Source of the DNA: Methylophilus medardicus
GTDB lineage: Bacteria > Pseudomonadota > Gammaproteobacteria > Burkholderiales > Methylophilaceae
Direction: 5' to 3'
NCBI RefSeq assembly: GCF_006363955.1
Contig: NZ_CP040948.1
Location: 496,001 to 560,000 of the forward strand
DNA length: 64,000 nucleotides
The translations under genes and the position numbers were made by a program. Positions 631-17,704 of this stretch are shown here, piece by piece (within the stretch, counting starts at the first letter, position 1; each line of letters opens with the position of its first letter). A model generated the notes under the pieces. The model saw nothing but the letters and a program-made list of their open reading frames with translations. It was not told the origin of the DNA and searched no databases.

Positions 631-957
631 ATGCTTGATTTCCTGAGTAAAACGACTAAATAACTCGCGATTCTAGCACAGGCGGGCGAAGAATATGTGT
701 CAGCGGGGTTTGAGGAACGCATGTGTGGCAATCAGGCCAACGCCCTGGGCTGGGTGTGCGCGATTGAATCATCGCCAGCTGAGAAGTGCGTCAGTGGCGC
801 GCGTTTGGTGTGCGATCAATGGTGATTTGCAGCTGGCTTTGCCGCACACAGCAGGGTCTCGCTTGGATAGGGTAGCTTGTTAGCGAGAGGCTTTGCATGC
901 ACGCGTTCAAGCCTAGAGCCCTCTGCAAAAAACATCATGCTACCTTTTGTTTGACCG
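631..957. other. Gap between yajC and tgt, no gene seen
   Basis: This 327-base gap holds no convincing gene on either strand. Open frames here are short and resemble nothing I recognise. It does contain nested inverted repeats: GGTAGC at 871-876 pairs with GCTACC at 939-944, and AGGCTT at 888-893 pairs with AAGCCT at 909-914, so the tgt-yajC transcript could fold there. The yajC ribosome-binding site lies at its left end. Confidence 0.5.
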
Positions 958-2178
<1,221 letters not shown>

Positions 2179-2307
2179 CTATTTTACCACAGCCATTGTG
2201 ATTGCCTTCTGCCGCCCCCGTATGCGTTCAGCATGGCGCTGTGCTTGCATTTTTTGTGATTGCCCGCAACAATGTTGATAATTCTGCAATTCTGAAAATT
2301 TCCCTCT

Positions 2308-3096
2308 ATGGATGAATCCCAAAACCGCCTTTCAAGACGCGAACAACATACCAGTCTGCGTCAGCGCGGCATTTATTTGCTCCCGAATCTATTCACCTCC
2401 GCTTCGTTGTTTGGCGGTTTCTACGCCATTGTGCAGGCGATGAATCTGCATTTCGAACAATCCGCCATCGCGATTTTTATCGCCATGGTGATGGACGGAC
2501 TGGATGGGCGGGTCGCACGCATGACCAATACGCAAAGCGCATTTGGTGCGGAATATGATAGCTTGGCAGATATGGTGTCGTTTGGAGTTGCGCCGGCATT
2601 GATCATGTACGTATGGGCGCTGCAGCCAATGAACAAACTGGGTTGGATTGCGGCATTTATTTATTGCGCCTGTGCTGCCCTGCGGTTGGCACGCTTTAAC
2701 ACCAAGATTGATGACCCGTTTCAAGACAAGCGCTTCTTTCAGGGCTTGCCGAGTCCAGCAGCAGCGGCCTTGCTGGCCGGGTTTGTTTGGGTGTCGTATG
2801 AATATAACATTGACGGCCGCGAAATTTTCTTTGGCGCCCTGCAAGTGAAATGGATCGCTTGGTTCTTAACGATATTTGCTGCTGGTTCAATGGTGTCTGA
2901 CCTTAAATTTTACAGCGGCAAAGACATCAATCTGAGACATTCAGTGCCTTTTGTGGCGATTCTGGCGGTGGTCATGGCCTTTGTGCTGATTTCATACAGC
3001 CCGCCCGAAGTGTTGTTTAGTGTGGTGTTCGTGTATGCCTTGTCCGGCTACTACATGTGGACACGCGAGCGACTAGCCAAACGAACCCCCGCCTAA
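2308..3096 (+). CDS. pssA: CDP-diacylglycerol-serine O-phosphatidyltransferase
   Basis: An inner-membrane enzyme of 262 residues that joins serine to CDP-diacylglycerol, making phosphatidylserine, the precursor of phosphatidylethanolamine. The CDP-alcohol phosphotransferase signature DGxxAR-x8-G-x3-D-x3-D is complete, starting at MDGLDGRVARM and ending in EYDSLADMVSFG. Several hydrophobic helices follow to the C terminus. The length and the LLPNLFTSASLFGGFYA entry helix match the integral-membrane PssA subclass rather than the E. coli peripheral enzyme. A clear terminator separates it from leuA. Confidence 0.95.
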   Translation: MDESQNRLSRREQHTSLRQRGIYLLPNLFTSASLFGGFYAIVQAMNLHFEQSAIAIFIAMVMDGLDGRVARMTNTQSAFGAEYDSLADMVSFGVAPALIMYVWALQPMNKLGWIAAFIYCACAALRLARFNTKIDDPFQDKRFFQGLPSPAAAALLAGFVWVSYEYNIDGREIFFGALQVKWIAWFLTIFAAGSMVSDLKFYSGKDINLRHSVPFVAILAVVMAFVLISYSPPEVLFSVVFVYALSGYYMWTRERLAKRTPA

Positions 3097-3112
3097 CTGG
3101 ATGCATCCGATC

Positions 3113-3142
3113 AAAAACGCGCTGCACCAAGCGCGTTTTTTT
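3113..3142 (+). terminator. Intrinsic terminator after pssA
   Basis: The stem AACGCGC/GCGCGTT closes an 8-base loop and runs into seven T residues. It lies 17 bases past the pssA stop codon. Confidence 0.85.
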
Positions 3143-3243
3143 ATGGCGTTGGCGCGTCAATGTTGTCGTGCATCCGCTTAGCAAGTGTGGTGGTCAATTG
3201 TAGGACAAGCGAGTAAAATTCAGCTGTCAGATTAGGAAAATCC

Positions 3244-4776
3244 ATGGAACACATTATTATTTTTGATACCACGTTGCGTGATGGTGAACAAAGCCCCGGC
3301 GCGGCGATGACCAAAGAAGAAAAAATCCGTATTGCGCGCCAGTTAGAAAAATTAGGCGTTGATGTGATTGAAGCAGGGTTTGCGGCCGCCAGTCCCGGCG
3401 ATTTTGACGCGATTTCAGAAATCGCCAAAGTGATTAAAACCTCGACGGTATGCTCGTTGGCGCGCGCCAGTGAAAACGATGTACGACGCGCCGGTGAGGC
3501 CATTAAACACGCAGTCAATGGTCGTATCCATACGTTTATTGCTACCAGCAAAATCCACATGGAAAACAAGCTGCGCATGAGCGAAGACCAAGTGGTCGAA
3601 CGCGCAGTGCAAGCAGTCAAATGGGCGCGCGAGTACACCGACGATGTGGAATTTTCAGCAGAAGACGCCGTTCGTTCTGAGATTGACTTTTTGGTGCGCG
3701 TGTTTGAAGCCGTGATCGAGGCAGGTGCCAAAACCATCAATGTGCCGGATACCGTGGGCTACAGCATTCCCGCACTGTGGGGCGAGCGTTTTGCAATTTT
3801 GCGCCAGCGCGTCAAAGGCGCAGATCAAGTGGTGTGGTCTACGCACTGCCACAATGACTTAGGCATGGCCGTGGCGAACTCGCTGTCGGCCGTGATGAAT
3901 GGCGCCCGTCAGGTGGAGTGCACCATCAACGGTTTGGGTGAGCGTGCTGGCAACGCCAGCCTCGAAGAAATCGTGATGGCGATCAAAACCCGTAGCGATA
4001 TTTTCAATTTAAGTACCCGTATTGATACGACGCAAATCGTGCCGTCGTCTAAGTTAGTGTCTACCATCACTGGTTATCCAGTGCAGCCGAACAAGGCAAT
4101 TGTCGGTGCCAATGCCTTTGCGCATGAGTCTGGCATTCATCAGGATGGCGTGCTCAAGCATCGCGAGACCTATGAAATCATGCGGGCTGAAGATGTGGGT
4201 TGGGGCGCAAACAAGCTTACCTTGGGCAAATTGTCTGGCCGCAACGCTTTCCGTACCCGATTGAAAGAGCTCGGCATCGAACTCGATAGCGAAGATGCGT
4301 TGAACGCGGCATTTGCCCGCTTTAAAGAGTTAGCTGATAAAAAGTCAGAAATTTTTGATGAAGACCTGCACGCCTTGGTCAGTGACGAGGTGGTGCAAGA
4401 GAGCCGCGAGATGTTTAAGCTCACCTATCTGCAAGTCGCTTCGCAAACCGGGGAGATTCCGCATGCGATTTTGACCCTAAGCGTCGATGGCGCGGAGCAG
4501 CGGACAGAGGCTGATGGCGGCGGTCCGGTGGATGCCACCTTTAAAGCCATTGAGAACGTGGTGCAAAGTGACGCCGAGTTGCTGTTGTATTCAGTGAACA
4601 ACATCACCAGTGGCACTGACGCGCAAGGCGAAGTGACCGTGCGTTTGTCCAAAGGTGGGCGTATCGTCAATGGTCAGGGGGCTGATACCGATATCGTGGT
4701 GGCCTCCGCCAAAGCCTATTTGAACGGGCTGAACAAACTTTACGCCAAAGCAGAAAAATTGAACCCGCAGGTGTAA
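3244..4776 (+). CDS. leuA: 2-isopropylmalate synthase
   Basis: LeuA condenses acetyl-CoA with 2-oxoisovalerate, the first committed step of leucine synthesis. The 510-residue protein has the catalytic TIM barrel opening with [16 protein letters not shown] (metal-binding Asp and Arg), the metal-binding motif [13 protein letters not shown], and the linker around [13 protein letters not shown]. The C-terminal part from about residue 390 is the leucine-binding regulatory domain ([22 protein letters not shown]). It is the long LeuA type with the allosteric domain. The ATG at 3244 agrees with the family's N terminus. It is flanked by terminators and is probably a single-gene unit. Confidence 0.98.
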
Positions 4777-10167: not shown

Positions 10168-10243
10168 GGGGTGTTAGCTCAGCTGGTAGAGCAGCGGACT
10201 TTTAATCCGTTTGTCGTGGGTTCGATCCCCGCACACCCTACCA
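10168..10243 (+). tRNA. tRNA-Lys (anticodon TTT)
   Basis: A complete 76-base cloverleaf with encoded CCA. The acceptor stem GGGGTGT pairs with ACACCCT (one G-U pair), followed by T8 A9, the D arm GCTCAGCTGGTAGAGC, anticodon loop CTTTTAA with TTT at 10201-10203, and the T loop TTCGATC. It is followed immediately by a terminator. Confidence 0.97.
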
Positions 10244-12109: not shown

Positions 12110-12613
12110 ATGGCGGCAGTGACTGGATTATTTCATGATCAAGAAAGCGCAGAGCGCGCGTATATCTCAGCGACAGAGGCTGGTTATGGCGCGAATGACA
12201 TCAACGTTATCATGTCAGATGAAACACGTGAGCGTTACTATGGTGAACATGCCACCTTGGAAACCGAGGTGGGAAACAAAGCCGCTGAGGGTGCCGCTGT
12301 GGGTGGCGCGCTAGGAGCGACAGCAGGGGCCATTGCGGGGGCGATTGCAGCCGTAGGCACGGCGATCGTTTTACCAGGCTTGGGTTTAGTGATTGCTGGC
12401 CCATTGGCCGCGGGTATTGCAGGTGCTGGCGCGGGTGGCGTGACCGCTGGCTTGGTGGGGGCTTTAATCGGCTGGGGCATCCCAGAAGATACCCTTAAAA
12501 AATATGAAGCCGATGTGAAAGAGGGCGGCATTTTAATCGGGCTTAATCCGAAAAGTGAAGATGATGCCCGCCGATTTCAAAATGAGTGGGCGAAATCAGA
12601 AGCCGTTGTTTAA
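12110..12613 (+). CDS. General stress protein 17M/YflT-like protein
   Basis: A 167-residue protein. The N-terminal part (AAVTGLFHDQESAERAYISA, YGANDINVIMSDE) fits the YflT/GspM-type module found in stress proteins, in which an alpha-beta fold precedes a glycine-alanine-rich hydrophobic segment. The hydrophobic part at about residues 60-125 (GGALGATAGAIAGAI, GPLAAGIAGAGAGG) looks like glycine-zipper helices able to insert in a membrane. The C terminus returns to a polar fold (EGGILIGLNPKSEDDARRF). Function in the cell is unknown. It is preceded by TTAGGAGATC and followed by a strong terminator. Confidence 0.75.
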   Translation: MAAVTGLFHDQESAERAYISATEAGYGANDINVIMSDETRERYYGEHATLETEVGNKAAEGAAVGGALGATAGAIAGAIAAVGTAIVLPGLGLVIAGPLAAGIAGAGAGGVTAGLVGALIGWGIPEDTLKKYEADVKEGGILIGLNPKSEDDARRFQNEWAKSEAVV

Positions 12614-12754: not shown

Positions 12755-12783
12755 GTGCATCTAATCACAGAAATGTGACGTAT
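12755..12783 (+). promoter_or_regulatory. Candidate ECF-sigma promoter of the sigma/anti-sigma operon
   Basis: GTGCATCT (12755-12762), a 15-base spacer and ACGTAT (12778-12783). The same elements with the same spacer length occur before the DUF3034 gene at 15083-15111. The CGTAT core of the -10 element is typical for ECF sigma factors, and autoregulation is usual for RpoE/ChrR systems. Inference, as no transcript start is known. Confidence 0.65.
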
Positions 12784-12819
12784 TTAATGAATAATCAAAT
12801 ATCAATTTGAAAAAGAAGC

Positions 12820-13380
12820 TTGGAATGCATTGTGATAGATGATATCGAGGATTTAATCGCTCGAATAATAGATAGGGATGAGGATGCTTTTAACGAATTG
12901 TATGAAGCTACTTTTAGCAAAGTCTATGGTTTGGCGTTGAAGATTACCAAGGATCCTAGTACTGCTGAAGAGGTGGTTGAAGATACGTATTATCAAGTGT
13001 GGCAAGAAATTTACCGTTACGATTTTAACAAGTGTCCCTTAAATAACTGGATGTTGATTATTTGTCGTTCTCGCGCCATTGATGCGGTGAGAAAGCTCAA
13101 TGCCATCCCTGAGATGGTGGTCGATTTCGAGTGGGCGATAGAGTCTACCGATTTGCCAGCAGACGATAGATTACAGGGCAAGCAAGAATCGTTGGCGGTG
13201 GTTAAAGCCTTATCAGAAATCAAACCCTTGCAAAGGCAGTTATTACACCATGTTTTTTATTATGGATTAACGCATCAAGAAATTTCTGATGTGATGAATA
13301 TGCCGCTTGGCTCGGTGAAATCAACGATTAATAGAGCACAAAAATTATTAAGAGAGAAACTCAAAGGTGAACAGTTTTGA
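12820..13380 (+). CDS. ECF-type RNA polymerase sigma factor, RpoE/ChrR class
   Basis: A 186-residue ECF sigma factor. Region 2 is at about residues 10-80 (DAFNELYEATFSKVYGLALK, AEEVVEDTYYQVWQE), and region 4 at about 125-182 has the helix-turn-helix LTHQEISDVMNMPLGSVKST. There is no ATG start: the frame can begin at TTG 12820 or GTG 12832, and the true start is uncertain. It overlaps the ChrR-like anti-sigma gene by four bases and probably controls itself and the DUF3034/haemoglobin unit through the shared GTGCATC-N16-ACGTAT motif. Confidence 0.92.
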   Translation: MECIVIDDIEDLIARIIDRDEDAFNELYEATFSKVYGLALKITKDPSTAEEVVEDTYYQVWQEIYRYDFNKCPLNNWMLIICRSRAIDAVRKLNAIPEMVVDFEWAIESTDLPADDRLQGKQESLAVVKALSEIKPLQRQLLHHVFYYGLTHQEISDVMNMPLGSVKSTINRAQKLLREKLKGEQF

Positions 13381-13826
13381 ATAAAGATATAAAGATGAAC
13401 AAACCTGAGTCTTTAGAATTTGATTTGTTTCTTGAGCTGTTTGAGGCGACGCCCGTGGTGACGCCTGCGGCCTCTGTTAAAGAGCGTATTAAAACGAAAT
13501 TGATGCAACGCGTTGCGCAAAGCCGTGGTGCACAGTTTTTTGTTTTTGAAGAGCAGGGCAATTGGAAATCATTTAAGCAAGGCATACACATCAAAATATT
13601 GAAAAGCGATGCCAAAAGTAAATCATTTTTGTTGAAGCTCGACCAAAACACCATTATTCCGTACCACGACCATCAAAAAAATGAAGAAACATTTGTGGTG
13701 GATGGTGAGGCTTGGCTAGATGGCGTGCATTGTAAAAATGGGGATTTTCACTTTGCCGGTGCGGGAACGTTTCATAAAGAGATTCGTACTGAACAAGGGT
13801 GCACGCTGTTGATTAAGACTTATTGA
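13377..13826 (+). CDS. ChrR-like cupin anti-sigma factor
   Basis: A 149-residue partner of the sigma factor. The C-terminal cupin keeps the ChrR metal site: His97, His99, Glu103 and His133, with the same spacing as His141, His143, Glu147 and His177 of Rhodobacter ChrR. The N-terminal sigma-binding part (residues 1-50) has no His or Cys at all, so the zinc site of classical ChrR is absent. The TTG start at 13377 overlaps the sigma stop codon (TTGA) and has AAAGGTGA seven bases upstream; an ATG at 13395 is the alternative. In ChrR the cupin domain is needed for the singlet-oxygen response. Confidence 0.8.
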   Translation: MNKDIKMNKPESLEFDLFLELFEATPVVTPAASVKERIKTKLMQRVAQSRGAQFFVFEEQGNWKSFKQGIHIKILKSDAKSKSFLLKLDQNTIIPYHDHQKNEETFVVDGEAWLDGVHCKNGDFHFAGAGTFHKEIRTEQGCTLLIKTY

Positions 13827-13846
13827 AACGTGAGCAACTAATAAAA

Positions 13847-14953
13847 ATGAACGTTCTTTATTCTATTCTGATCATGACTGCATCCACCTTGTTATCGGCA
13901 TCTACCTCCTTTGCAAACAACGATTTCAAAGCGCCGATATGGCAACTGGGCGGGCACTTGCAGACGATTATTCCGTCGCTTTTTCCGCAAGTGGCCAAGC
14001 AGACCTATGTGCGGGAGCGTTGGGAGTTGCCGGATGGGGATTTTGTGGATGTGGACTGGACCGAATCGCCTGCACGTTTGGACAAAGCGCAACCCAAGCC
14101 TGTGCTGGTGCTGTTTCACGGCCTAGAGGGAACCTCTCAAAGCCATTATGCCCGGGTGCTGATGGCTGCGGCCAAGCAACGCGGTTGGCTAGGCGTGGTG
14201 GTGCATTTTCGTGGCTGTTCGGGCGAGCCGAATCGATTGCCACGTGTGTACTATGCCGGCGATGCAGATGAGATCAACACGTTTATTTCAATCATTCATC
14301 AAAAATTACCCGACAACGTGATTTATGCGGCTGGTGTATCGTTGGGTGGGAACGCACTATTAAAGTGGCTGGGCCAATACCCAGAAAATGCGCGTCGCCT
14401 GGTGAAAGCGGCGGCGGCCATTTCAGCCCCCATTGCGTTGAAAGAGACAGCGCACAGTTTGGATACAGGGTTGAATTACCTCATATACAGTAAACACTTT
14501 GTGGCCACGATGAAACCAAAAGCGTTGCAAATGGCGGAGCGATTTCCGGATTATTTAGACGCTAGCCGCATTCAGACCGCCCGGAGCGTGCAAGACATGG
14601 ATAACGCGGTGACCTCGGTGTTGTTCGGAACCAAAAATGCCGACGAATACTATGATGTCAACGCCTCTAAACCGTGGCTACGCTCGATACAAACTGAGAC
14701 CCTTATTTTAAATGCGAAGAATGATCCGTTTGTGCCATTTGATACCTTACCGTCTGAAACAGAAGTCTCCAGCGCGGTGCAGCTAGATTATCAGGCTGAG
14801 GGCGGACATGCCGGCTTTTATGGCAAGACTGATCAAGCTTCGCCGTGGCTGGCGGCGCGCATTTTCCAATTTTTTGACAACACCGAGCATGTGCAACTCG
14901 ATGCTTTGGTTGATCAGCTGATTCAATTTCACCCTGCTGCGCTGTATCAATAA
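13847..14953 (+). CDS. YheT-family alpha/beta hydrolase with a signal peptide
   Basis: A 368-residue alpha/beta hydrolase of the YheT/EMB8 family. Key segments are GGHLQTIIPSLFP, the oxyanion strand LVLFHGLEGTSQSHYAR, the nucleophile elbow AAGVSLGGNALLKWLG, the Asp segment ILNAKNDPFVP and the His segment EGGHAGFYG. Unlike cytoplasmic YheT it starts with a signal peptide (YSILIMTASTLLSASTSFA), so it should work in the periplasm. The ATG at 13847 is preferred for this reason; a TTG at 13823 would overlap the anti-sigma stop. It is the third gene of the sigma operon. Confidence 0.8.
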   Translation: MNVLYSILIMTASTLLSASTSFANNDFKAPIWQLGGHLQTIIPSLFPQVAKQTYVRERWELPDGDFVDVDWTESPARLDKAQPKPVLVLFHGLEGTSQSHYARVLMAAAKQRGWLGVVVHFRGCSGEPNRLPRVYYAGDADEINTFISIIHQKLPDNVIYAAGVSLGGNALLKWLGQYPENARRLVKAAAAISAPIALKETAHSLDTGLNYLIYSKHFVATMKPKALQMAERFPDYLDASRIQTARSVQDMDNAVTSVLFGTKNADEYYDVNASKPWLRSIQTETLILNAKNDPFVPFDTLPSETEVSSAVQLDYQAEGGHAGFYGKTDQASPWLAARIFQFFDNTEHVQLDALVDQLIQFHPAALYQ

Positions 14954-15082
14954 GCGCGCATCAAGCGCTTAAACTCCTCTCGTTGACTCCAATCGTCGGT
15001 GGTGCATCCACCCACGCAAACCCGCGCATCAGGCAAATAGTTGCATTTATTTTTGCCCATAGCGTCATTGATTGCATCTGAA

Positions 15083-15111
15083 GTGCATCCATTTTCAAAT
15101 CCATTACGTAT
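15083..15111 (+). promoter_or_regulatory. Candidate ECF-sigma promoter of the DUF3034/haemoglobin operon
   Basis: GTGCATCC (15083-15090), a 15-base spacer and ACGTAT (15106-15111), matching the motif before the sigma gene at 13 fixed positions. It ends 45 bases before the DUF3034 start codon. Confidence 0.65.
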
Positions 15112-15156: not shown

Positions 15157-16128
15157 ATGCAGCTTTCATTATCAAAAAAAATAGTACTTGGTGTATTGAT
15201 CTCCAGTGGTTGGCTATCAACCGCGGTCATGGCCGAGGTCACCACCAGCAATAAGCTGTTGCTGACAGGTGGCGTGTCACAGGTTGAGGGTGCAGCGGGC
15301 GGTGGTTTAACGCCATGGGCGGTGATCGGGGGCTATGGCACCAACGATGAAATCGGCGCCAATGTGCATTACACCTATGCAAAAACCGGGGATTACAAGC
15401 TAGACAGTTACGGCATCACGGTCGGTTTTTATGATCGTTTTGAGCTCTCGATTGCGGAGCAGAAGTTCGACATTGGTAACTTAAGAAACAAGGTTGCCAG
15501 TGGCTTAGGCGCCGATGTGATTGGCCGAGATACGCTGGATCAAACCATTATTGGTGCCAAGCTGCGGGTGTTTGGTGAGGCGGTGCTGGATGCAGATACC
15601 TGGATGCCGCAAGTGGCGATTGGTGCGCAATACAAAAGAAACCACGACGAAAAATTCATCAAAAGTGCGGTCATCGGCGCCAAGAGTGCTGAGGGTGTCG
15701 ATTTCTATGTGGCTGCGACAAAACTATTTTTGGATCAAAGCTTTTTGGCGAACGCGACCTTGCGTCTGACCAAAGCGAATCAATTTGGCTTGTTAGGCTT
15801 TGGCGGTGCAAAAGACGACAACTACACGCCGCAATTAGAGCTTTCTGGCGCATATTTGATTAATAAAAAACTGGCGATTGGTGCGGAATATCGCATGAAA
15901 CCCAACAATTTACGTAGCCCTGCCAATGCTGCGCTCTTTGGTGGCCAAAATGTGGTGGACCTGAAGGAAGAAGATGCGTTTGATATTTTTGTGGCCTATG
16001 CGCCAACAAAGAACGTCGCGTTGACGTTGGCCTATGTGAATCTAGGAAACATTGCCACCGTTGCCCCTGTGGGCGCCAATTATGGTGACCAAGAAGGCGT
16101 CTATCTCTCTGCACAGTTCGGTTTTTAA
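15157..16128 (+). CDS. DUF3034-family outer-membrane beta-barrel protein
   Basis: A 323-residue protein with a signal peptide (GVLISSGWLSTAVMA) and repeated amphipathic strands ending in LSAQFGF, an outer-membrane barrel signature. The pattern LLLTGGVSQVEGAAGGGLTPWAVIGGYG at the mature N terminus matches the DUF3034 family as I recall it. Function is unknown. The ATG at 15157 has AGGG upstream; the longer frame from 15124 adds a polar stretch. The haemoglobin gene follows 18 bases after its stop, so the two share the promoter at 15083-15111. Confidence 0.75.
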   Translation: MQLSLSKKIVLGVLISSGWLSTAVMAEVTTSNKLLLTGGVSQVEGAAGGGLTPWAVIGGYGTNDEIGANVHYTYAKTGDYKLDSYGITVGFYDRFELSIAEQKFDIGNLRNKVASGLGADVIGRDTLDQTIIGAKLRVFGEAVLDADTWMPQVAIGAQYKRNHDEKFIKSAVIGAKSAEGVDFYVAATKLFLDQSFLANATLRLTKANQFGLLGFGGAKDDNYTPQLELSGAYLINKKLAIGAEYRMKPNNLRSPANAALFGGQNVVDLKEEDAFDIFVAYAPTKNVALTLAYVNLGNIATVAPVGANYGDQEGVYLSAQFGF

Positions 16129-16146: not shown

Positions 16147-16605
16147 ATGAACAACATTTTTAAATTCTTAATCATTATTTTGTTGGCGATCGTGTCGTCA
16201 TCAAGCTTTGCCGAAACCAGCCCAAATTTAGGCAATACACCGATGGAGACCAATGAAACCTTCCAAGACTTTGGCGGCAAGCCAGGGCTCGTCTCCATCA
16301 TGGATGACTTTATGGTGAATTTGGTCGCAGATCCGAGAACAAAGCCGTATTTCGATAATGAGAAGCAAACGTACATCAAGGCCATGCTGGTTGAGCAAAT
16401 GTGTGAACTGATGAACGGCGGCTGTAGCTATCCCGGTCGTGACATGAAATCGTCACACGCTGGTCTCAAAATAAATCGCTCTGCTTTCAATGCGCTGGTA
16501 GAAAACTTTCAGGTCGCAATGGAAAAACATAACGTGCCTTTCCGTGCGCAGAATAAGTTGCTCGCGAAGTTAGCGCCCATGTACAGGGTGATTGAAGAGA
16601 AATAG
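16147..16605 (+). CDS. Periplasmic group 1 truncated haemoglobin
   Basis: A 152-residue truncated globin behind a signal peptide (FLIIILLAIVSSSSFA). The globin motifs are LxFGGKPGLVSIMDDF-like at helices A-B, DPRTKPYF at the C-E region, GGCSYPGRDM and SHAGLKINRSAF with the proximal histidine. Such globins bind haem and handle oxygen, nitric oxide or peroxide; export to the periplasm is less usual. It is the second gene after the DUF3034 barrel and is probably controlled by the upstream ECF sigma factor. Confidence 0.85.
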   Translation: MNNIFKFLIIILLAIVSSSSFAETSPNLGNTPMETNETFQDFGGKPGLVSIMDDFMVNLVADPRTKPYFDNEKQTYIKAMLVEQMCELMNGGCSYPGRDMKSSHAGLKINRSAFNALVENFQVAMEKHNVPFRAQNKLLAKLAPMYRVIEEK

Positions 16606-16819
16606 TGCGCGCGATAATCAGTATTGAAGTAAGCAAGTTGACAATGCAAGGCAGTTATCAACCGTTGAGGGATATTAAATAACAACGGCTTGTGTTGTAG
16701 TTGTTAATGGGGAGCGTTAGTTGTGACGCTGGGTTTGGTTGCTATAAAAGGCTTGCCCAGCGCGCAATTTTTTGTAGTTCATTTTAATAACTTAATTGAA
16801 ATTTTGAAGAGAGGTTAAC

Positions 16820-17704
16820 ATGAAGATTGGCTATTTTTATCGTTCGGTATTCGCTGCAAGTTTGCTGATGGGCGCTGCTCAGGTAAATGCGGATACATTG
16901 TATGGATTTAACAGTAGCAAGATTGCTGTGATCGATTCATTGAATCTGGGCGCGGTTTCTTATATCGATATTTCTGGCTTGTCTGCCGGTGAGCGCTTGC
17001 TTGGTGTTGATCTGAGACCGACAGATGGCTTGGTATATGGCCTTACAAGCCAGAACAGAGTGTATACGCTAGACACCACCACCGGTGCGGCAACGTTTAA
17101 GAGCACCCTCACTGGGGCTTCTCTGACGGGGCAGTCTGTCGCATTGGACTTTAACCCGCAAGCAGATTTTATGGGTAGCCCATCCCTGCGTGTGATTACT
17201 GGTGCTGGCAACAACTATGCAGTGAACGTGAATACAGGCGTAGTAGGTAACACGGCTGGTGCGAACATTGGCAGTGGTTACACCGCAGTTTCGTATATCA
17301 ATTCTATCCCAGGTGTACCGCCAACCAGCACTGGTTTGTATTATGTAAACACCAATAGTGATTCGCTACAGTTTTTGGCTTCTACCTTTAACAACCCAGC
17401 AGCAGTGGGTGGCATCCAGATGGTTGGTTCACTGGGTGTGAATGCACTCTCCGCGGGTGGCTTTGATATTCTGGGCAACGGCAAGGCTTATGCTTTGTTT
17501 AACTTAGATGATGGCACCTTAGATACACAGTTGTTCTCCATCAATCTGACCACAGGCGCAGCGACTTATGTCACGACGCTGGATGGGACGTTCAATGGTC
17601 TGACAGGCGTTGCAGCGGTACCTGAACCAGCGAGCTATGCCATGGTATTGCTTGGTTTAGGTCTGATGGCCGGTGCGGCAAGACGTCAAAAGCGTCAAGC
17701 TTAA
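16820..17704 (+). CDS. DUF4394 PEP-CTERM exported protein
   Basis: A 294-residue exported protein with a signal peptide (SVFAASLLMGAAQVNA), a DUF4394-type repeat region (LYGFNSSKIAVID, GVDLRPTDGLVYGLTSQNRVYTLD, GQSVALDFNPQAD) that probably forms a propeller-like fold, and the C-terminal sorting tag AVPEPASYAMVLLGLGLMAG followed by RRQKRQ. An AGAGG site precedes the ATG. It stands alone with its own terminator. It is the second PEP-CTERM protein of the window; the exosortase lies elsewhere. Confidence 0.85.
   Translation: MKIGYFYRSVFAASLLMGAAQVNADTLYGFNSSKIAVIDSLNLGAVSYIDISGLSAGERLLGVDLRPTDGLVYGLTSQNRVYTLDTTTGAATFKSTLTGASLTGQSVALDFNPQADFMGSPSLRVITGAGNNYAVNVNTGVVGNTAGANIGSGYTAVSYINSIPGVPPTSTGLYYVNTNSDSLQFLASTFNNPAAVGGIQMVGSLGVNALSAGGFDILGNGKAYALFNLDDGTLDTQLFSINLTTGAATYVTTLDGTFNGLTGVAAVPEPASYAMVLLGLGLMAGAARRQKRQA

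Follow-up and report, generated by a model that had tools for sequence, protein, structure and literature searches.

The forward strand of a 64,000-base stretch of the genome of the methanol-consuming bacterium Methylophilus medardicus (contig NZ_CP040948.1, positions 496,001 to 560,000; hereafter the window, with positions counted from its first base) carries two adjacent operons headed by the same promoter motif. The first encodes an extracytoplasmic function (ECF) sigma factor, a ChrR-type cupin protein and a YheT-like hydrolase, and the second encodes a DUF3034 protein and a truncated haemoglobin, with a gene for a PEP-CTERM/DUF4394 protein behind them (Table 1). An initial annotation of this DNA had proposed that the two operons are controlled together by the sigma factor. 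Our comparison with related genomes makes it highly probable that the sigma gene belongs to a tiny, autoregulated ECF regulon spanning its own operon and the DUF3034-globin unit. The argument that one sigma factor serves both operons is drawn from the presence of the same promoter on both, and from the retention of that promoter before the same genes in relatives; the window's own sigma factor is very probably the protein that recognizes it.

The two sites are identical at 13 fixed positions with equal spacing. The coordinates and the 13 matching positions given in the initial annotation were correct, and its one variable base plus 15-base spacer amounts to the 16 bases that we find between the elements. 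A scan of the whole genome (2,602,980 bases) for GTGCATC-N16-ACGTAT returned these two exact matches, at 12755 and 15083, while the reversed pattern returned none; about 0.08 exact matches would be expected in the genome from the base composition of the window. When up to two mismatches were allowed, the genome held 47 matches versus 29 for the reversed control, and with up to three mismatches the window held 13, against an average of 17.5 in shuffled sequence. A signal above background is thus confined to exact and near-exact matches. A scan for sigma-70 promoters in the area of the sites gave 9 matches versus 8.1 in shuffled sequence, which is the shuffle level. Because the pattern was chosen after the two sites had been seen, its statistical significance is overstated, and we have therefore placed the weight of the argument on related genomes.

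Table 1. Features of the two operons and the adjoining DUF4394 gene in the window.
Feature	Position	Strand	Basis
Promoter 1, ECF type	12755..12783	+	GTGCATCTAATCACAGAAATGTGACGTAT; TGCATCTA-N15-CGTAT; heads sigma/cupin/hydrolase operon; exact pattern match
ECF sigma factor gene	12832..13380	+	Sigma70_r2 and Sigma70_r4_2; start probably GTG at 12832, TTG at 12820 also available
ChrR-type cupin protein, likely anti-sigma factor	13377..13826	+	Cupin_7 "ChrR cupin-like", E 1.7e-13
YheT-like alpha/beta hydrolase	13847..14953	+	Abhydrolase_1; NF008218 hydrolase, 269 bits vs cut-off 267
Promoter 2, ECF type	15083..15111	+	GTGCATCCATTTTCAAATCCATTACGTAT; TGCATCCA-N15-CGTATA; exact pattern match
DUF3034 protein, predicted outer-membrane beta-barrel	15157..16128	+	PF11231, E 7e-96, 321 bits vs cut-off 25
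Group 1 truncated haemoglobin	16147..16605	+	PF01152; five best PDB profile matches all group 1
PEP-CTERM/DUF4394 exported-type protein, probable third regulon member	16820..17704	+	PF14339 and PEP-CTERM

The sigma factor belongs to the ECF group, as a small protein (182–186 amino acids) in which only Sigma70_r2 and Sigma70_r4_2 scored above cut-off, and it is 88–92% identical to its counterparts in eight other genomes of the Methylophilus group. Of the 19 loci inspected, 11 have the element TGCATC-N17-CGTA ahead of their ECF gene, namely those of the window (genome G000), of eight further genomes of its genus (G002, G004, G005, G007, G008, G009, G020 and G021), and of G010 and G047. In the ten loci outside the window it lies 76–166 bases 5' of the matched ECF start. 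All 11 sites share TGCATC, an A at position 8 and CGTA, and differ in the spacer. The same test did not find the element at two cupin-type loci (L098 and L115), four with another type of ECF gene (L104, L113, L116 and L118) and two at the level of the order (L107 and L108); L098 has a site about 470 bases upstream, and L115 has one farther upstream, before DUF3034.

The second operon gave a similar result. DUF3034 genes of the Methylophilaceae are of two kinds, those with a globin gene behind them on the same strand, and paralogs with a divergently oriented globin gene. The pattern TGMATC-YW-N14..16-CGTA occurred within 130 bases of the start in all 11 readable Methylophilaceae orthologs of the DUF3034-globin pair (69–100% identical; L118 and L168 fall outside this set since their upstream DNA was unreadable), and before none of the 21 Methylophilaceae paralogs. 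A weight matrix trained on the ECF-gene promoters alone (10 of the 11 sites, L091 being omitted as near-identical to L090) placed 10 of the 11 orthologs above the 99th percentile of a background (10.8) whose segments include the true sites of the loci. The eleventh, L114, scored 10.7, just under this threshold, and none of the 21 paralogs exceeded it. The logo of the DUF3034 sites was built from seven sequences, leaving out L102, which is a near-duplicate, the Pseudomonas site L119 and the sites that span 26 bases; a reversed-pattern control for the DUF3034 scan (0 vs 63) involved overlapping loci and was not used. The window's own genome also encodes a second DUF3034 protein (G000:C1:56452-57246, locus L105) with a divergent globin of about 30% identity, the arrangement seen in the 21 Methylophilaceae loci that lack an ECF-type site.

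These comparisons bear on the suggestion that the two promoters resemble each other by chance, or through a recent duplication of functionless DNA. Such an origin might be entertained for just two sites, 2.3 kb apart and matched by a post hoc pattern, but the spacers and flanks of the two sites differ, and three types of gene retain the elements in front of them in different species and genera, with variable spacers. The suggestion is thus already contradicted by conservation, and we give it next to no credence. Conservation of the promoter across genomes instead supports the regulon that was originally proposed, with recognition by the sigma factor as its conjectural part.

The DUF4394 gene adds a history to the second unit. 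Seven genomes (G002, G004, G005, G008, G009, G020 and G021) have the gene order ECF-cupin-hydrolase-DUF4394 with no DUF3034-globin pair, and in these the ortholog of the promoter at 15083 sits 319–332 bases before the DUF4394 gene; promoter 2 is 83–94% identical to these orthologs over 32–50 bases. Homology between G008 and the window extends about 18 bases beyond the promoter and resumes near 16638, roughly 33 bases past the stop codon of the globin gene, and in the remaining six the second block of homology starts later. With homology on both of its sides, the pair in the window lies inside a DUF4394 unit. In G007 and G010 the DUF3034-globin pair is located elsewhere. At L168 (probably G018; 819-4202) the globin gene is followed by an opposite-strand gene for a 1128-amino-acid protein with phytochrome (PHY, GAF), PAS, GGDEF and EAL domains. 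We infer from this arrangement that the pair was inserted downstream of a promoter that the regulon already had, and the reverse history, repeated loss of the pair, is possible. The second operon of the initial annotation thus keeps its promoter and gains a partner, as the promoter of the DUF3034-globin pair is orthologous to that of the DUF4394 gene.

A site stands directly upstream (149–332 bases) of the DUF4394 homolog in eight of the nine genomes that have the cupin gene, the ninth being the window, where the site precedes DUF3034; the nine do not include the G007 homolog, which starts at the end of a contig. No site was found before the DUF4394 homologs of the four genomes without a cupin gene (Fisher p 0.007, relatedness ignored). 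The long leader of the DUF4394 gene gave no sign of an RNA element better than shuffled sequence (z -0.51 and 0.72). It could be argued that the DUF4394 gene is the sole functional target in the window and that the pair was accidentally inserted behind its promoter, as the seven genomes with this promoter and no pair, and the resumption of G008 leader homology just after the globin stop, might indicate. However, the pair has such a site of its own in 10 other Methylophilaceae genomes, where no DUF4394 gene adjoins it, and we therefore judge this explanation quite improbable.

If the motif marks a small regulon, it should be rare elsewhere, and the initial annotation had held that many unrelated sites in related genomes would speak against the idea. 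No such abundance was found. The pattern TGCATCYW-N15-CGTA occurred 0–7 times per genome in 22 genomes of the genus, and where the sigma-cupin-hydrolase-DUF4394 cluster is complete, as in eight Methylophilus genomes, each genome contained the two sites of the cluster and 0–2 others. We opened all eight sites outside the cluster; six lie inside reading frames of 411–847 amino acids, and one, in G008, lies between two opposite-strand genes and not ahead of a gene on its own strand. The eighth, at G000:C1:238548 in the window's genome, is intergenic and unconserved. A site in the window's genome with one mismatch (G000:C1:2066029) was rejected, being within a reading frame of 546 amino acids. A stricter pattern gave 27 sites in 21 of 100 genomes of the family, versus 6 in the reversed control, and 12 of the 27 stand before ECF, DUF3034, DUF4394 or CFA genes.

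In Methylotenera the same genes and sites recur in other combinations. Locus L115 has one site followed by DUF3034, globin, ECF, cupin and hydrolase genes in a row, and another site farther on, ahead of a CFA-synthase-like gene. G047 (L099) has three, before the CFA gene, the DUF3034-globin pair and the ECF-cupin-hydrolase genes respectively, and no further strict site within the 19 kb. In L113, L116, L117 and L118 the genes behind the pair are an ECF gene, an RskA-type gene and CFA (domains checked for L113), and these RskA-linked pairs mostly carry TGAATC as the -35 element. A division of TGCATC and TGAATC by the type of neighboring ECF gene proved mixed (L113 is RskA-type with TGCATC, and L115 cupin-type with TGAATC) and is not claimed. 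Overall, 54 of 62 DUF3034 loci have a same-strand globin gene, and 17 of these have an ECF gene within 4 kb. Among the 39 DUF3034-globin loci with 10 kb on both sides, an ECF gene lies within 4 kb in nine and at 4–10 kb in none.

The variant TGAATCYA-N15-CGTATA was also seen at L188 (1501-1530) before a cysteine-rich gene that appears bufferin-like by eye and matches no Pfam family, and likewise before MerR-type regulators at L189 and L190 (both 1501-1530) and on the minus strand of L191; the regulator of L189, the one tested, has B12-binding domains. Together with the RskA-type loci, these placements lend something to the proposal that the motif is a true ECF-type promoter class read by one or more other sigma factors, with the neighboring sigma gene merely a target. 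Fifteen region-4 matches occur in the window's genome, and of the top seven, which were opened, the six other than the window's own have no motif within about 400 bases upstream (the eight weaker matches were left unopened). This, and the way in which the site before the DUF4394 gene tracks the cupin gene, argue against another reader, which we consider unlikely.

The partner of the sigma factor is a ChrR-type cupin protein, encoded from a possible TTG start at 13377 that overlaps the sigma stop codon, or from an ATG at 13395. Its predicted metal ligands H91, H93, E97 and H127 form the arrangement H-x-H-x3-E plus a distal H, and are invariant in 15 of 15 aligned sequences. Their spacing (2, 6, 36) is the same as that of Rhodobacter sphaeroides ChrR, for which the available text of PMC6852236 gives ligands 141/143/147/177. 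Structures of ChrR rank among its best matches by both profile and fold, and one of them (2q1z) is the top Foldseek match in the PDB. The protein is the sole full-length homolog of its kind in the genome. However, the zinc anti-sigma motif HxxxCxxC was absent from all 27 cupin reading frames drawn from 29 loci, ECF-paired or not (with one frame duplicated and one cut by a contig end), and the NCBIfam ChrR models were far from their cut-offs (TIGR02451, 27.1 bits vs 124.5; NF051881, 26.5 vs 300). The ChrR label of the initial annotation therefore holds for the cupin and its metal ligands, and not for ChrR in the strict sense.

The absence of this motif, and the roughly 50 residues before the cupin domain, modeled with low confidence as two short helices (predicted local distance difference test, pLDDT, below 50, from an alignment of only two sequences), leave some room for the idea that the cupin protein is an enzyme or co-sensor, and that control of the sigma factor is exerted chiefly through its own transcription. 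Against this, every one of the 11 Methylophilaceae loci with the pair, and L115 as well, has the cupin gene directly 3' of the ECF gene, ChrR structures are among the best matches of the protein, and many anti-sigma domains are zinc-independent according to the available text of PMC7406223. The same text names helices 1 and 4 of such domains as the two main contacts, so that a short N-terminal clamp is conceivable in the modeled protein. We regard the enzyme or co-sensor role as rather doubtful, and the cupin protein as a likely anti-sigma factor. This suggests a ChrR-type control that works without the zinc anti-sigma domain.

The proteins of the second unit may belong to the cell envelope. 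In the AlphaFold2 model of the DUF3034 protein beta-strands predominate (mean pLDDT 74), and its top Foldseek matches are the barrels FapF, OmpG, NanC and KdgM, with E values down to 2e-8 and query TM-scores of only about 0.4–0.5. By profile the globin is closest to group 1 truncated haemoglobins (E 5e-20 to a group 1 chain), and H104, which we take to be the proximal ligand, is invariant in 13 of 13 aligned homologs. So are C86 and C93, two distant paralogs included, which suggests a disulphide between them. The N-terminus of the globin resembles an export signal when judged by eye, and the hydrolase of the first operon has a signal-like N-terminal stretch by the same judgment. Directly before the sigma operon lies a gene (12110-12613) for a glycine/alanine-rich protein of 167 amino acids with no Pfam match, and at gathering scores a tRNA gene (10168-10240) is all that Rfam finds in the window.

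Several observations weigh against the proposed regulon. Of 44 same-strand DUF3034-globin pairs from outside the Methylophilaceae, just 9 exceed the 99th percentile (among them Pseudomonas L119, Noviherbaspirillum L136, Undibacterium L143 and Acidovorax L147), and 12 of 13 Caballeronia/Burkholderia loci and most of those from Roseateles/Mitsuaria fall below it. L137, labeled Methylotenera but 53% identical and with Roseateles-like surroundings, was counted in neither the 11 nor the 44; its match, 45 bases upstream, is possibly within a coding part, as in L138. Two Aquabacterium paralogs with divergent globins, L162 and L163, which are outside the 21, carry a close variant of the site (CGCATCCGGACGATATCCATCTCCGTATTT, score 15.4), and this counts mildly against a clean split between orthologs and paralogs. 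A third exact match to the family pattern in the window's genome (G000:C1:238548) is intergenic, 133 bases before a 111-amino-acid exported-type protein; it is absent from six of six homologs, and we rejected it as a third regulon member, as chance or strain-specific. No site lies upstream of the CFA-like gene of the window's genome, which is 68% identical to that of Methylotenera. RskA-partnered ECF genes also stand beside such sites, which means that motifs of this class are not confined to the sigma family of the window. The four genomes scored as without cupin were judged on the cupin gene alone and not on the sigma gene, and two are 88% complete; three of their DUF4394 homologs are only 45–47% identical, while that of G003 is 72% identical in a genome that is 100% complete. 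Finally, all of the compared genomes are related, and the counts are not independent.

Comparison with known systems places this one as a variant of the ECF/ChrR kind, and not as a plain member. RpoE (sigma E)/ChrR of the ECF11 group, known from R. sphaeroides with relatives in Shewanella and Pseudomonas syringae, is activated by singlet oxygen or organic peroxide. Like that system, the present one pairs an ECF gene with a downstream gene for a ChrR-type cupin, and has a promoter core ATCY-N16-CGTA and a site before the sigma gene itself; the site before a CFA-type gene is shared by Methylotenera. It departs from that group in the -35 element, which is GCATCY here and TGATCC in ECF11-type sites (TGATCC-N16-CGTA in the available text of PMC4336711 and PMC5507510), with the same spacing and -10, and in the missing zinc anti-sigma motif of the cupin protein. 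It also departs in the site-bearing genes, which encode an exported-type globin, a DUF3034 barrel, a YheT-like hydrolase and a PEP-CTERM protein. ECF11 core genes named in the available text of PMC5507510 include photolyase; of such genes we checked the CFA type alone, which has no site in the window genome. Among NCBIfam models the sigma factor scores highest with SigK (118 bits, under the cut-off of 226), and RskA_C-partnered ECF genes adjoin the DUF3034-globin pair in several Methylotenera, but the partner of a SigK/RskA-type ECF is an RskA-type protein, and that of the window is a cupin. The globin shares its profile match and conserved histidine with HbN/GlbN, and differs from them in its export-signal-like N-terminus, its two invariant cysteines and its encoding with a predicted outer-membrane barrel.

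Taken together, these results are consistent with the following mechanism. The cupin protein would probably hold the sigma factor encoded beside it, until a signal acting on the metal-bound cupin frees it; by analogy with the ChrR family, we guess at photo-oxidative or lipid-peroxide stress. The freed sigma factor would direct RNA polymerase to GCATCY-N16-CGTA(T) promoters, of which the genome offers two good ones, before its own operon of sigma factor, cupin and putatively exported hydrolase, and before the unit of DUF3034 barrel and presumably exported globin. Read-through would probably include the PEP-CTERM/DUF4394 protein at 16820.

Our survey of the literature on DUF3034, DUF4394, ECF factors of Methylophilus and exported truncated haemoglobins, in which subscription journals were little covered, revealed no apparent account of this system. 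It is conceivable, although we put it forward tentatively and as less likely than its negation, that it represents a betaproteobacterial ECF class with a stripped-down ChrR, in which a metal-binding cupin and a short two-helix clamp replace the zinc anti-sigma bundle. Its tiny dedicated regulon would have as main output a periplasmic truncated globin and its own outer-membrane barrel, amounting to a new envelope module for haem-based defense or small-molecule handling. DUF3034, a family of unknown function, and an exported-type truncated globin are here tied to one sigma factor and one promoter, and their role may therefore be tested with a single deletion and a stress panel.

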